Positions 4,461 to 12,349 of a DNA stretch of 33,764 nt are shown in pieces. The DNA lies in IMG/VR virus record IMGVR_UViG_3300030406_004736, positions 1 to 33,764 of that record, one strand, 5' to 3'. Made by a program: the position numbers and the translations under genes. Below the pieces are notes generated by a model, which saw nothing but the letters and a program-made list of their open reading frames with translations, ran no database searches and had not been told where the DNA came from. Origin of the DNA: a virus. Position 1 is the first letter of the stretch. The number at the start of each line of letters is the position of its first letter.

Positions 4461-5348
4461 CTACTCAGTGAAGTCTTCTTCTGGCTCGGGAAGATTGTTT
4501 TCTTTGGCCTTTTCAACCAAGTCTTTAACCTTCGATTTCCGCCGCCCCTTTGGTTTTTCGTCCGGTTGGACATCTATAACGTTCTGTTCGATTGTAACAC
4601 CATTGGCATCAGAAACACCATTGACGCTAATATTTTGCTCAGACCAAGAATCTTCCTCAAAGTCTGACTTGATGTCGTGGGCAAGAACTTCCTGAGTCTT
4701 TGGCGTAAGCGGAAGGTACTTGCAGATGCGTCTAATAACAGTCTTCCGCCACATCTCCTCTGTGTGCTGTGACCACGGCCCGCTGTCTGGGCTTCTGGAG
4801 GACTGTCGAATCTTGTTGATCTGGTCTTTACGCATAACTTCAACTTGACGCTGCCCGTCTTTATAGAAGCACACAGCATAGGCTAGAAGCATTTCGCCAG
4901 GATCTTGATAGCACTTCTTGTGCTTGAGTATCTCTCCTTGCTCAAGGTCAAACGAGTGTTCAAACTCGTCATTCTCGTAGACAATCTCAGCCTTGAAGTG
5001 GGCTACCTCGCCAGACCTCTTTACTAGATCCATCAGTCCCGTATACTCAATCCAAAGTTCAGCATCGTAGCACTTTGCTCGCTTGTTCCACATGGGCACT
5101 AGAGAAGCCCTATGCAATGCTCCTCCGCCAATAAGGTCAAGCTCGCAAGCCTTTGCTAGAGCCAAGTACACGGATGTAGGGGAGCACTGAACCAACCGTT
5201 CGTTCTTTGCTGCCTCCATCATTGCAATGCGTATGATTCGGTCTACGTCTGCGCCTTTCGGTGCAATTTGAGTGAGGCTAGTCTTCTTTGTTCCAAGAAA
5301 CTGATTTAGTGCTGCAAGCTGGTCTCTGCGGCTAATTGCTGTCGTCAT
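4461..5348 (-). CDS. recT: RecT-family single-strand DNA annealing protein
   Basis: 295 residues. The N-terminal two thirds show the RecT pattern: a helix with CSPTSVYLALAKACELDL, the GGALHRASLVPMWNK turn, AELWIEYTGLMDLVKRSG, and the late SGPWSQHTEEMWRKTVIRR segment, which is highly typical of RecT/RecP annealases. The C-terminal 60 residues are acidic and poorly conserved. It anneals complementary single strands during phage recombination and replication. It overlaps the upstream nuclease gene by 17 bases, the usual recombinase-exonuclease pairing. Confidence 0.9.
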   Translation of the reverse strand: MTTAISRRDQLAALNQFLGTKKTSLTQIAPKGADVDRIIRIAMMEAAKNERLVQCSPTSVYLALAKACELDLIGGGALHRASLVPMWNKRAKCYDAELWIEYTGLMDLVKRSGEVAHFKAEIVYENDEFEHSFDLEQGEILKHKKCYQDPGEMLLAYAVCFYKDGQRQVEVMRKDQINKIRQSSRSPDSGPWSQHTEEMWRKTVIRRICKYLPLTPKTQEVLAHDIKSDFEEDSWSEQNISVNGVSDANGVTIEQNVIDVQPDEKPKGRRKSKVKDLVEKAKENNLPEPEEDFTE

Positions 5349-6312
5349 TTTTTGGCTCCATAATTTTTAAAATCCTATTCCCTGGGCTCTCGGTAACGTA
5401 TTCCTTGTAAAGGTCTGGATGCTCTTGAGAGAACCTTTTCTTATCAAAGTTCGCGCGAGGCTTTGATGGCTTCCACGTAGCAACCCCAGCGATACCTAAA
5501 GACTCTCCAATACAACTTCGTAGTTGATTTTCTAGTTCGTTTTTCTTTGTTGTGGCTACTTTATGCTCTTCTCTTGCTTTTAGTATCTTTTCGTACAGGT
5601 CTCTCTCTGCAACGCTTGCAACCCTAAGTGGTTCATCTACAACTCTTGGGTTTAGCTTAAAGACTTTTCCAAGAGCCTCTCGGCACATGTCTGTTGAGTC
5701 TGGAGGAGGAGGAGTTTCAGATGCAACATACTTTTGCCACCACTCTTCAGCGATATTAAGTATCTGCTCACCAAGCTCCTTATCCCTTTCGATTCGATAA
5801 ACGCGAAAGTCATCAAGGCTAAACAATGTTGCTATGTCCCAGTATGGAGCGTCAAATATCTCCATATAGACTCTCATTTGGACCTCTACATCTAGAGGAA
5901 TATCAGTCGTTCCTGTCTTGCCCCAGCCCTTCCTGAACCTTCGGGTCTTGGCGTCCATGCCAAAAGAAACTCCGTTTTGTTCAACCATTGCGTCTGGTGT
6001 GCCAAAGATACGTGGCCGGGTTGGGTGCCAAGTTAAGCCCCTCTCCCAAAGGCGACATCCCTCCCCTAAATGAAGCTCGTATAGCTCAAATACGTATTTC
6101 TCCATCACCCGGCCACGCATCAAAACTGCGTCATCGCTTTCTTCTGATTCAAACAGACCAGTCTTTTCAGACCAAATCTTAAATAAACTTTTTTCAAACG
6201 AACCTATTTTGTCTGATGCTTCAGCGCCTGACATCATAATTGCTGCTATGTCTGTTCCTCCCAGACCTTTCTTTCGCTCTTCAAGCCATGCTTGGCGTTC
6301 AGTTTGGTTCAT
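5332..6312 (-). CDS. YqaJ/lambda-Exo-type nuclease
   Basis: 326 residues from the ATG at 6312, preceded by AGGAG; an upstream in-frame start would add 24 residues, run through the promoter and lack a ribosome site. EERKKGLGGTDIAAIM at the N-terminus is the classic YqaJ opening (R-x-x-G-GG-T/S-D). Later come GMDAKTRRFRKGW (metal and catalytic D...K) and VEVQMRVYMEIF (conserved Gln helix). It should resect double-stranded ends 5'-3' to make substrate for RecT, whose gene overlaps its 3' end. It is the first gene of the leftward recombination operon behind a strong promoter. Confidence 0.88.
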   Translation of the reverse strand: MNQTERQAWLEERKKGLGGTDIAAIMMSGAEASDKIGSFEKSLFKIWSEKTGLFESEESDDAVLMRGRVMEKYVFELYELHLGEGCRLWERGLTWHPTRPRIFGTPDAMVEQNGVSFGMDAKTRRFRKGWGKTGTTDIPLDVEVQMRVYMEIFDAPYWDIATLFSLDDFRVYRIERDKELGEQILNIAEEWWQKYVASETPPPPDSTDMCREALGKVFKLNPRVVDEPLRVASVAERDLYEKILKAREEHKVATTKKNELENQLRSCIGESLGIAGVATWKPSKPRANFDKKRFSQEHPDLYKEYVTESPGNRILKIMEPKNDDSN

Positions 6313-6426: not shown

Positions 6427-6666
6427 ATGATCATCGAGAGTTACAGAAAAAGCCTGCCAGGAAGAAGCACTAGAGTGCTATTCATACAGTGGCTAAATGG
6501 TGAGCTAGTAAAGTTCGACCTAAAGCTTAGTGTTGGGTACTTGCGAGATTTAGAATATGGAAGGAAGACGCCTTCTTTACCTCTTGCTATTGGTATCGAA
6601 AAAGCTACGGGTGGTGTAGTATCTGTAAGAGAGTGGCTTGGTTTAAACTCAAGCCTTCGTTCATAA
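6427..6666 (+). CDS. Small Cro/C1-type helix-turn-helix regulator
   Basis: 79 residues from the ATG at 6427, with AAGGTG upstream; longer upstream starts would run through the promoter. The middle part (VGYLRDLEYGRKTPSLPLAI) reads as the second half of a Cro/XRE helix-turn-helix, with the typical Y-G-R-K-x-P turn, followed by EKATGGVVSVREWLGL, a common end in Cro-like proteins that interpret host or phage operators. It is divergent from the recombination operon and flanked by palindromic operators, as in a lambda-type switch. Whether it acts as Cro or repressor is unknown. Confidence 0.75.
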   Translation: MIIESYRKSLPGRSTRVLFIQWLNGELVKFDLKLSVGYLRDLEYGRKTPSLPLAIGIEKATGGVVSVREWLGLNSSLRS

Positions 6667-10533: not shown

Positions 10534-10902
10534 ATGGCTCTCAAAGTAAGTGGATACGCCAGTTCAAGTGGATTGAAAAACAAAATCGTTTTTCAGTCAA
10601 CAGTCACTGCAACTACGGACATAGATGTTCTTGGCACTGGTGGTTCAATAATCTCTCTTGATCTTGATAATCTTCACAGTGCTGCAATTTATTTTAAAAT
10701 GAAGACAAGCTCTGGGACTTACACTGCTGGGTCCACGTTTCCTGACTATCAATTTCGTATTCCTGCAAACACAGCAAAACGATTTGACTTTACTGATGGT
10801 TTGCCATTTGATCAGCTTACGTTCTGGTGCAATGATGGACCTCAGGCATCAGACACTGACAACCCAGGTGGCACAGTACTTGCGACTTTTGTTATTAAGT
10901 AG
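10534..10902 (+). CDS. Small beta-rich phage protein, copy 3 of a four-member family
   Basis: 122 residues starting MALKVSGYAS. It has the family core: GSIISLDLDNLHSAAIYFKM, a loop, RIPANTAKRFDF, then GLPFDQLTFWCND. Its own extended -10 promoter and a TGGTGG ribosome site lie upstream. It sits as a rightward two-gene insert inside leftward early genes, about 10 kb from copies 1 and 2, so it looks like a mobile cassette or a duplicated pair. Function unknown; probably a secreted or virion beta-sandwich. Confidence 0.75.
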   Translation: MALKVSGYASSSGLKNKIVFQSTVTATTDIDVLGTGGSIISLDLDNLHSAAIYFKMKTSSGTYTAGSTFPDYQFRIPANTAKRFDFTDGLPFDQLTFWCNDGPQASDTDNPGGTVLATFVIK

Positions 10903-10910
10903 GAAGAAAG

Positions 10911-11279
10911 ATGGCTCTCACAACAAGCACAATCTCTCAGAATCTCTTTACCACTATTTCTGAAGAGACTGATCTAGACCTTACTTTGGTTGGGTTCAAT
11001 AATGTAGACACTACGATTTACGCTATTGAGTTTGTAAACCCTAACACTGCCCCAGTTTACATTCGGCACATTTGGGGAACCAATGCTTCTGCTTTGAGTA
11101 CAAGCACTGATTACGACAACTGCTATCTTGTCCCCGCAGAGGGTAGCTTTTCTATATATTGTGGAACTGGGTACCTTACTGGTGGAGTCATTATGTGGGC
11201 TTCAACAGAAACTGGAGTAAACTCTTTGACTGCTCCTACGAGCCCAGTGTCTGTAAAGGTTGCTTACAAGAACACATGA
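10911..11279 (+). CDS. Small beta-rich phage protein, copy 4 of a four-member family
   Basis: 122 residues, MALTTSTISQNL..., with AGGAAG upstream. The core IYAIEFVNPNTAPVYIRHIW closely follows the copy-2 pattern (IEITNPGAEALYVKI). GGVIMWASTETGVNS parallels the GLSFWASTSASVGS block of copy 2. Thus copies 2 and 4, and copies 1 and 3, look like corresponding members of two pairs. The stop comes one base before the stop of the convergent gene. Confidence 0.75.
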   Translation: MALTTSTISQNLFTTISEETDLDLTLVGFNNVDTTIYAIEFVNPNTAPVYIRHIWGTNASALSTSTDYDNCYLVPAEGSFSIYCGTGYLTGGVIMWASTETGVNSLTAPTSPVSVKVAYKNT

Positions 11280-11280
11280 T

Positions 11281-11592
11281 CTACCTGTAGTAATCGTAGA
11301 TGTACTCTTGAACAGCCAGGCAGCTTTTAAGGTCGCAGCTTCTTACTTCTGAGTCAACTACGTAGTAGATTGTTAAAGGGTCGTGCCAAGTTGGCTTCTT
11401 TGATCTAATGATCATCCCGGCTTCTAGTTCACCACAACGAACAGTAGCTGTGCATTCGTACAGCCCGTTTGATGCCTGAACAATCCAACTCTTTTCTTTG
11501 ATCACTTCATCAAAAATCTTGTACCTATACGATCCCCTGTCGAAGTCTGAAGCAAATGATTCAAGGGCCAAAAACATTAAATGCATAATCAT
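11281..11592 (-). CDS. Unknown small protein with signal-like N-terminus
   Basis: 103 residues. The first 16 residues (MIMHLMFLALESFASD) could be a short signal peptide cut after FAS. The rest is beta-rich with four Cys (CTATVRCGE and CDLKSC) that could form two disulphides, consistent with export. The start overlaps the FmdB-like gene as ATGA. No family is recognised. Confidence 0.6.
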   Translation of the reverse strand: MIMHLMFLALESFASDFDRGSYRYKIFDEVIKEKSWIVQASNGLYECTATVRCGELEAGMIIRSKKPTWHDPLTIYYVVDSEVRSCDLKSCLAVQEYIYDYYR

Positions 11593-11780
11593 TGTTTAGC
11601 CTTCTTTAGTCCGTAGTTGTCTTTTGCCCAGCTATCCCCTTTGAGGCTAAAGCTGGTAAGTGCAGGCTTTTTCTTCATCTGCTTCTTGCACTCGGTGCAG
11701 TCAGGCCATGGGTCAGCGAAGCTTTGAAGAACCTCAGCCATCCTTCCGCAAGAGTTGCATTCAAATATATAAAGTGGCAT
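11589..11780 (-). CDS. FmdB-like zinc-ribbon protein
   Basis: 63 residues from the ATG at 11780 with AGGAG upstream; a longer frame would run into the tRNA-like gene. MPLYIFECNSCGRMAEVLQS and CTECKKQM give the two CxxC knuckles of the FmdB zinc-ribbon family, often written as a putative regulatory protein and common in phages. The substrate is unknown; such ribbons bind nucleic acid or protein. It is the first gene after the tRNA-like RNA. Confidence 0.8.
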   Translation of the reverse strand: MPLYIFECNSCGRMAEVLQSFADPWPDCTECKKQMKKKPALTSFSLKGDSWAKDNYGLKKAKQ

Positions 11781-11796
11781 TGTTTCTCCTGAAAGT

Positions 11797-11947
11797 GAGG
11801 GATGGGGGGATTTGCACCCCCAAAGCCACATGGGCCAGCAAGAATCTATTCCACGCCAAGTTGATCGTTCTTGGTTGCCTACCCAGGTGTATACCCCACA
11901 GGTCGCAGGTCATTCTTTGCCGCGTTTACTATTTTCGCCACATCCCC
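11797..11947 (-). tRNA. Class II (Leu/Ser-type) tRNA-like gene with an insert in the anticodon arm
   Basis: Read on the minus strand from 11947, GGGGATG pairs with CATCCCT at 11804-11798 (one G-U, six Watson-Crick pairs), a 7-bp acceptor stem. U8 follows, then a D-arm GCG/CGC with an 11-base loop of the length seen in tRNA-Leu, and near the 3' end a T-arm of five G-C pairs around TGCAAAT (consensus TTCRANN with one change). A small variable arm GCC-CATGT-GGC marks class II. Acceptor, D, variable and T arms are contiguous as in a tRNA, but between GCAA (11920-11917) and TTGC (11841-11838) lie about 73 bases instead of a 7-base loop. No CCA is encoded. It exactly fills the gap between ssb and the FmdB gene. 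The anticodon cannot be assigned. It could be an intron-bearing, decayed or non-canonical tRNA. Confidence 0.5.
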
Positions 11948-11956
11948 ATTTTATCC

Positions 11957-12349
11957 TTAAAAAGGAATCTCTTCGTCATTCGCTTGGTACCCAGACTGAG
12001 GTTGGACTTGAGCTTGAGACACGCCATTCACTGGCTTGGTCAGAAACTCAACACGGTCTGCAAGAATCTCTGTACTCTTGCGGTTGTTGCCTTCCTTGTC
12101 TTGATATTCGCGAGTGCGAATCTTGCCTTCAATCGCAACCTTTGAACCCTTGTCGAGGAAGTTGCAGCAGTTCTCAGCCTGCTTGCCAAAGACAACTACA
12201 GTGTGCCACTCAGTGTGGTCCTTGTACTGGTCGCCGTCCTTGACGCGCTCGTTGGTTGCAATCCGAAGATTGGTAATGGCCATACCAGAGTTGGCCTTTT
12301 TAATCTCAGGCTTCTGGCCCAAGTTTCCAGTCAAAATGACTTTATTCAT
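11957..12349 (-). CDS. ssb: Single-stranded DNA-binding protein
   Basis: 130 residues. MNKVILTGNLGQKPEIKKANSG opens the OB fold in the usual bacterial SSB way. Next come AITNLRIATNERVKDG, TEWHTVVVFGKQAENC and SKVAIEGKIRTREYQDKEGN. The C-terminus DEEIPF is the acidic tip that recruits partner proteins. It coats single strands for replication and RecT-mediated annealing. It overlaps the upstream zinc-ribbon gene by 4 bases. Confidence 0.95.
   Translation of the reverse strand: MNKVILTGNLGQKPEIKKANSGMAITNLRIATNERVKDGDQYKDHTEWHTVVVFGKQAENCCNFLDKGSKVAIEGKIRTREYQDKEGNNRKSTEILADRVEFLTKPVNGVSQAQVQPQSGYQANDEEIPF

Follow-up and report, generated by a model that had tools for sequence, protein, structure and literature searches.

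The window analysed here is the whole stretch of 33,764 nt of a viral record (IMG/VR record IMGVR_UViG_3300030406_004736). On its minus strand, an ssb gene is followed, after a gap of 176 nt (11956–11781), by a gene for a small protein that gave no match in a PHROG search and that we take to be fmdB-like, a name given in the first-pass annotation of this DNA. Between the two genes lies an RNA framed like a tRNA (Table 1), which the same annotation had described as exactly filling the gap. It does so only nearly: 9 nt precede the RNA and 16 nt follow it, the latter including the ribosome site of the fmdB-like gene.

Table 1 The tRNA-framed RNA and its neighbours in the window; L007 is a related viral contig described in the text.
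Feature	Position	Strand	Basis
Whole tRNA-framed RNA, acceptor to base 73	11797–11947	minus	151 nt; read directly from sequence
Acceptor 5′ strand, GGGGATG; 7 bp including one G-U (11947–11941 with 11804–11798)	11941–11947	minus	7/7 pairs in 3/3 distinct sequences
Acceptor 3′ strand, CATCCCT; base 73 = C at 11797	11798–11804	minus	sequence
D-arm, tRNA-Leu-like, 3-bp stem (11938–11936/11924–11922), A at position 18, loop AAAATAGTAAA	11922–11938	minus	sequence and relatives
Anticodon-position stem, 5′ strand: GGCAA, bulged A, GAAT	11912–11921	minus	two-sided change A-U to G-C in L007
Anticodon-position stem, 3′ strand: ATTC, TTGCT	11837–11845	minus	sequence
Domain between GCAA and TTGC, 75 nt	11842–11916	minus	core 56/69 columns identical to L007
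Insert hairpin A, ACCTG/TGGGT (11903–11899/11885–11881), invariant loop part GGGTATACAC	11881–11903	minus	both variable pairs still pair in L007
Insert hairpin B, CCAAG/CTTGG	11856–11874	minus	invariant stem, variable loop
Variable arm, GGCC/GGCT, 4 bp (11836–11833/11827–11824)	11824–11836	minus	loop 5 nt in window, 3 nt in L007
T-arm, GGGGG-TGCAAAT-CCCCC, 5-bp stem (11821–11817/11809–11805)	11805–11821	minus	sequence and relatives
ssb, upstream neighbour	11957–12349	minus	phrog_44, 6.8e-47
fmdB-like small protein, downstream neighbour	11589–11780	minus	AGGAG at 11790–11786

Direct reading bears out the acceptor of 7 bp, D-arm, variable arm and T-arm that had been claimed, as well as the hairpin CCAAG-N9-CTTGG (11874–11856) within the insert. 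The anticodon-stem strands GCAA and TTGC are split apart as described, by 75 nt (GCAA to 11917, TTGC from 11841) rather than by the ~73 bases first given. Here, GGCAA (11921–11917) pairs with TTGCT (11841–11837), and the stem is extended beyond a bulged A by GAAT/ATTC (11915–11912/11845–11842). The 5′ half of the RNA is of tRNA-Leu type. Held against a canonical tRNA, the RNA has the 7-bp acceptor, D-arm and T-arm at correct spacing, but has no anticodon stem of 5 bp that encloses a 7-nt loop containing U33. It also departs from the canonical D- and T-loops: A-G stands where canonical tRNAs have G18–G19, and the T-loop reads UGCAAAU, with UGC for the canonical UUC (which L007 has). C follows the acceptor, and CCA is unencoded. 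Staphylococcal tRNA-Gly for cell walls is a tRNA kept out of translation, and A18 and the UGC loop of the window RNA are reminiscent of such excluded tRNAs.

ARAGORN, which the first-pass annotation had proposed as a check with introns allowed, called no tRNA in the element at default settings; once introns of up to 200 were allowed and the score was relaxed, it returned Lys(ctt) with a 72-nt insert. An Rfam scan of the element gave nothing above threshold and only chance-level matches under a loosened cut-off. The folding energy of the full element had no advantage over shuffles (z −0.22) and that of the insert alone was no better than shuffles; we therefore dropped the energy argument. The single sequence, taken alone, is thus compatible with chance, and it is the comparison of relatives that shows otherwise.

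A protein search with ssb led to 17 viral loci, five of which (L002, L003, L007, L008 and L009) have the element directly after ssb. Searching with a pattern of the insert added L020, giving six IMG/VR contigs in total, and a broader pattern, with 45 matching stretches, found the element solely in the same known contigs. These six fall into three sequence types: one that matches the window exactly, the L003 form, and the L007 form. The window and L003 differ by a single substitution and in that L003 has 19 nt of the variable-arm region duplicated in tandem (149/150 bases the same outside the duplication; 149/169 columns with the duplication counted), while their four-fold sites are 86% identical in ssb and 29% in fmdB. 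Between the window and L007, 122/153 columns are the same and 31/153 differ, at four-fold identities of 67% in ssb and 50% in fmdB; the fmdB percentages in both comparisons rest on 17–18 sites. The element thus changes more slowly than the synonymous sites of ssb and fmdB. The near identity of the window and L003 elements could alternatively stem from recent transfer.

The changes that did occur largely spare the fold. We modelled the three sequences as a cloverleaf plus the two insert hairpins, 38 pairs altogether, and found standard pairing for 37/38 pairs in all three. The stems, whose conservation in relatives the first-pass annotation had marked for checking, thus stay almost fully paired across the three distinct forms (113/114 pair cells). 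One pair changed on both sides, four changed on one side yet still pair, and one is lost in L007. Changed columns made up 7/76 of the paired and 24/77 of the unpaired positions (Fisher p = 0.001). The covariation score did not exceed that of shuffles (158/500), as three sequences can hardly beat shuffles.

Elsewhere among the relatives, the place between ssb and fmdB is taken by tRNA-Asn alone (L004, L010, L011 and L012), by tRNA-Asn together with two tRNA-framed RNAs (L003), or is without any tRNA-like RNA (L005 and L006), with ARAGORN applied to L003, L004, L010 and L012 among other relatives. Since relatives place tRNA-Asn or nothing there, we regard this place as a slot for tRNA genes.

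What, then, is an RNA with a folded domain where its anticodon loop should be? The anticodon arm is the usual site of introns, and the first-pass annotation had considered an unusual intron while noting that the insert is too short for a typical group I intron. The latter holds: 75 nt is far below group I size, and Rfam returned no group I match. To examine excision in general, we listed the 17-nt anticodon arms that removal of the insert would leave, in two registers, looking for at least 4 pairs, U33, a purine at 37, a 7-nt loop and a place common to the window and L007. No arm combined these features; the window had no purine-37 arm at all, and the excision candidates of the window and L007 differed from each other. 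The insert, moreover, is as conserved as the frame. In favour of a tRNA whose short intron some other splicing system would take out, the second tRNA-framed RNA of L003 would, upon removal of a 40-nt insert (excision between 31 and 32), yield the canonical loop UUGAAAA (Phe). Since none of the excisions tried in the two registers restores a canonical anticodon arm, be it in the window or in L007, we consider this reading very improbable. A decayed tRNA had also been suggested; we judge similarly small, if not smaller, the chance that the element is a tRNA-Leu gene in decay, split by an insertion. The loss of G18, the altered T-loop, the C at 73 and the duplication in L003 would suit decay, but the insert is conserved, and only one substitution and the duplication separate the window from L003 despite diverged ssb and fmdB genes; across the three forms, changes spare the stems and accrue more slowly than at synonymous sites. 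An intron and a decayed tRNA are thus both poor fits, given the conserved insert and the lack of any excision that would rebuild a canonical arm.

The element could instead be part of an mRNA, namely an untranslated leader of fmdB or an intergenic structure of an ssb–fmdB message whose tRNA-like fold controls translation or processing. The RNA ends 6 nt from the fmdB ribosome site, and L003 and L007 retain its position relative to fmdB. However, L004, L005 and L006 possess fmdB while their slot holds tRNA-Asn or is empty, and a 7-bp acceptor and tRNA-Leu D-arm would be superfluous in a leader; we give this explanation a slim chance. The remaining suggestion of the first-pass annotation was a tRNA-shaped regulatory RNA; taken more broadly, as a functional RNA of tRNA shape, it gains support from the conservation of both frame and insert across the three forms.

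L003 offers a further view of such RNAs. Its second tRNA-framed RNA (about 6487–6608) forms a clear cloverleaf whose anticodon loop holds two hairpins (folding z −2.5), and a pattern search with it found one relative, L345 (another contig, reverse strand, about 864–998). The two have in common the insert CGATACC ... TGACTTAA-GGTATTGAAAA, and differ in the sequences of acceptor, D-stem and anticodon stem, all of which still pair (acceptor 6/7 in L003 and 7/7 in L345; anticodon stem 5/5 in both). A conserved domain can therefore occupy different tRNA frames. By eye, TTAGTCA may form a loop–loop pairing with TGACTTAA in both RNAs. Among other long-insert frames, we observed inserts 94–96% identical on three different paired acceptor stems (L197, L214 and L221), as well as a common insert (73–80%) in L226, L247 and L252, from three bacterial phyla (Terriglobia, Chlorobiaceae and Desulfobulbus); the neighbours of L247 and L252 look prophage-like by eye, with a RecT-like protein, a methylase and a D5-type primase.

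Such frames are not confined to this locus. A scan of viral sequences for a tRNA-Leu D-arm followed by a T-arm after 92–122 nt gave at least 120 stretches. Among the matches listed, 54 were ordinary tRNA-Leu genes beside another T-arm, and the other 66 comprised 50 places (47 distinct) with at least 6/7 acceptor pairs. All seven pairs form in 46/47 of these distinct frames among the matches listed, a set selected for pairing (mixed partners: 12.6%), and A73 is found in 38/47 of them. When A at position 18 was required in a second scan (37 stretches, 36 places examined), no ordinary tRNA-Leu appeared (0/36), an acceptor was present in 30/36 places, and the window-type UGC T-loop occurred in 10/36 (10/24 distinct). 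Bacterial genomes, scanned likewise, gave at least 116 places, among them 62 ordinary, 34 end-paired (4 containing N) and 20 other. Frames of tRNA-Leu type with long inserts are thus common in phages and also present in bacteria, with dozens found.

The inserts themselves are mostly unlike one another, and the inserted domain of the window RNA resembled none of those on the other long frames. A search for 4- to 6-mer motifs in 41 inserts, leaving out six of the 47 as near-duplicates or doubtful (L151, L144, L089, L182, L093 and L110), gave a weak excess. An extended anticodon stem as a general trait of long-insert frames was dropped, the stem lengths beside the D-stem resembling those of shuffles. 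Compared with isolated phages and plasmids, three of the long RNAs matched at most through their tRNA-like ends, or not at all. Our literature search yielded no account of the end-paired class beside bacterial and phage Y RNAs, though with the main Y RNA papers outside that search its novelty is unproven.

Bacterial Y RNAs are the obvious precedent. In work by Chen and colleagues from 2014, a bacterial Y RNA was reportedly recognised as a tRNA mimic, with Ro60/Rsr tethered to PNPase. This arrangement is also given in PMC8394870, which further describes YrlA as a tRNA-like part plus an Rsr-binding stem, the stem lying at the 5′ and 3′ ends. PMC7790460 likewise treats bacterial Y RNAs as tRNA mimics and suggests possible inhibition of an anticodon nuclease by YrlA, and phage Y RNAs and Ro60 are already on record in PMC12282133 and PMC7824862. 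We thus considered that the window RNA might be a true Y RNA, whose insert binds Ro60/Rsr (of the host, or from a part of the phage off this contig) and whose tRNA-like portion would tether PNPase, the arrangement found in Deinococcus.

Some long frames do lie next to Ro60. In L256 (Nostoc sp.), four tRNA-framed RNAs stand in a row (5215–5912) on different frames, three plainly with one core, at or upstream of the start of a Ro60 gene (vWA_Ro60 7.7e-38, TROVE 3.3e-16). L229 and L299 have three end-paired RNAs each adjacent to Ro60, and Ro60 is ~1.2 kb away in L243 and ~3.1 kb in L291, so that 5/5 cyanobacterial loci with such end-paired frames are near Ro60. Among the matches listed, TROVE occurred in 8/30 genomes with end-paired long frames, compared with 1/50 controls drawn from the 62 ordinary tRNA-Leu loci (p = 0.001). 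Without the five cyanobacteria, however, the figures among the matches listed were 3/25 vs 1/50 (p = 0.1), and TROVE was present in only 2/49 viral records tested (49 of 76 loci). L085 (a 341-kb record) and L195 (94 kb) are viral and combine a long tRNA-framed RNA with a TROVE protein. Among the scan matches that failed acceptor pairing, we noticed by eye permuted RNAs of YrlA type, with a closed hairpin before the D-arm; four Hymenobacter look-alikes of this kind (L249, L275, L317 and L329) have Ro60-like proteins within 8 kb.

For the window RNA, no such link was seen. TROVE was absent from the window record and from 16/16 relatives' records, all of them fragments. No YrlA (RF02553) match was found around the element at E up to 10, nor any in the record whose element is identical to that of the window. 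The Ro60-binding motif is GNCGAAG; neither this motif nor looser versions of it occur in the window insert or in the second RNA of L003, and L007 matches the loosest form only. As a mark of viral frames in general, this motif was rejected, its occurrence being near shuffle level. The window RNA does have tRNA-like D, T and acceptor domains, as YrlA does, but its 5′ and 3′ ends make an acceptor and not the basal stem that PMC8394870 places there. Taken together, a part of the end-paired long-frame class is Y RNA, and most of it, the window RNA included, has no sign of being so. Because the contig has no Ro60 and the RNA neither a YrlA match nor a Ro60-type motif, we treat it as a probable tRNA mimic and consider a true Y RNA unlikely.

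Other known RNAs share some of its traits. Like YrlA, it joins tRNA-like D, T and acceptor parts to a (here putative) protein-binding domain, which in the window RNA sits in the anticodon loop and not at the ends. The Nostoc-type arrays beside Ro60 (L229, L256 and L299) come close in architecture, with a full 7-bp acceptor, D-arm, T-arm and a domain at the anticodon position, one core being carried on several different frames; that core, GCCU-GCAA-AGGC-CGAAGAAU, is nevertheless absent from the window RNA. The 139-nt species 1 RNA (rnaC) of phage T4 is stable, is encoded next to tRNA genes and has the T-arm and 3′ part of a tRNA, but it has ~5/7 acceptor pairs by eye, no clear tRNA D-arm and an unlike sequence; we know of no function for it. 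Whereas tmRNA likewise combines tRNA-like ends with a substituted anticodon region, the window RNA is less than half its length and matched no tmRNA family in Rfam. A tmRNA-like tag in the insert was rejected, the GCA...TAG frame of the window being lost in L007 (TAC, by eye). A tRNA-Leu(UAA) with a group I intron is also a tRNA-Leu frame broken at the anticodon, but the window insert is far under group I size and without an Rfam match.

We thus favour, with a probability of roughly 60%, a noncoding RNA that stays unspliced and has a frame of tRNA-Leu type, with a conserved two-hairpin domain in place of the anticodon loop, and that would serve as a tether or decoy. Because a folded 75-base domain replaces the decoding part, this is probably no ordinary tRNA but rather a stable imitator of one. 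We infer its transcription, processing, stability and role along the following lines. Given the retained acceptor, D-arm, variable arm and T-arm, host tRNA enzymes could excise the RNA from the ssb–fmdB transcript, and the tRNA frame would stabilise the excised RNA, while the ~75-nt domain in place of the anticodon loop would make ordinary decoding impossible. The frame would then engage tRNA-handling proteins and the inserted domain hold a partner, as in other bacterial tRNA mimics, so that the RNA might be a tether, or might act as a decoy that draws off nucleases attacking tRNAs; by analogy, one of these two roles seems most likely. Counting against this tRNA-framed imitator are A18 and the UGCAAAU loop, which weaken the elbow, a C at base 73 where tRNA-Leu usually has A, and the 19-nt duplication of the variable arm in L003, which one would hardly expect in a tRNA frame of tight fit.

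More speculatively, tRNA-framed RNAs of phages may form a large and varied class, mostly free of Ro60, whose members have different structured domains in place of the anticodon loop and whose frames are swapped or rebuilt around conserved domains. The window RNA would be a member with its own domain and a partner other than Ro60, and might be a decoy against defences that attack tRNAs; this we offer tentatively, as a possibility we would not bet on. The tRNA mimics known from bacteria are Y RNAs and tmRNA. Should end-paired frames with an interchangeable domain prove as common in phages as our scans indicate, and mostly free of Ro60, poorly annotated stable phage RNAs would exist that escape tRNA finders or are misnamed by them, and they would provide a handle on what tRNA-like RNAs do for phages, such as countering defences that cut tRNAs, and on the origin of Y RNAs.

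Two other features of the window caught our attention. At 83–846 and 10534–11279 there are two pairs of adjoining ORFs of 121–131 aa, alike in make-up, one ORF of which had no match in PHROG. Furthermore, between 22572 and 26719 a 47-nt repeat (GTGTGAACCC...GAGTGATAGGGCG) occurs seven times at a spacing of 416–920 nt, some copies being followed by a GC-rich inverted repeat.
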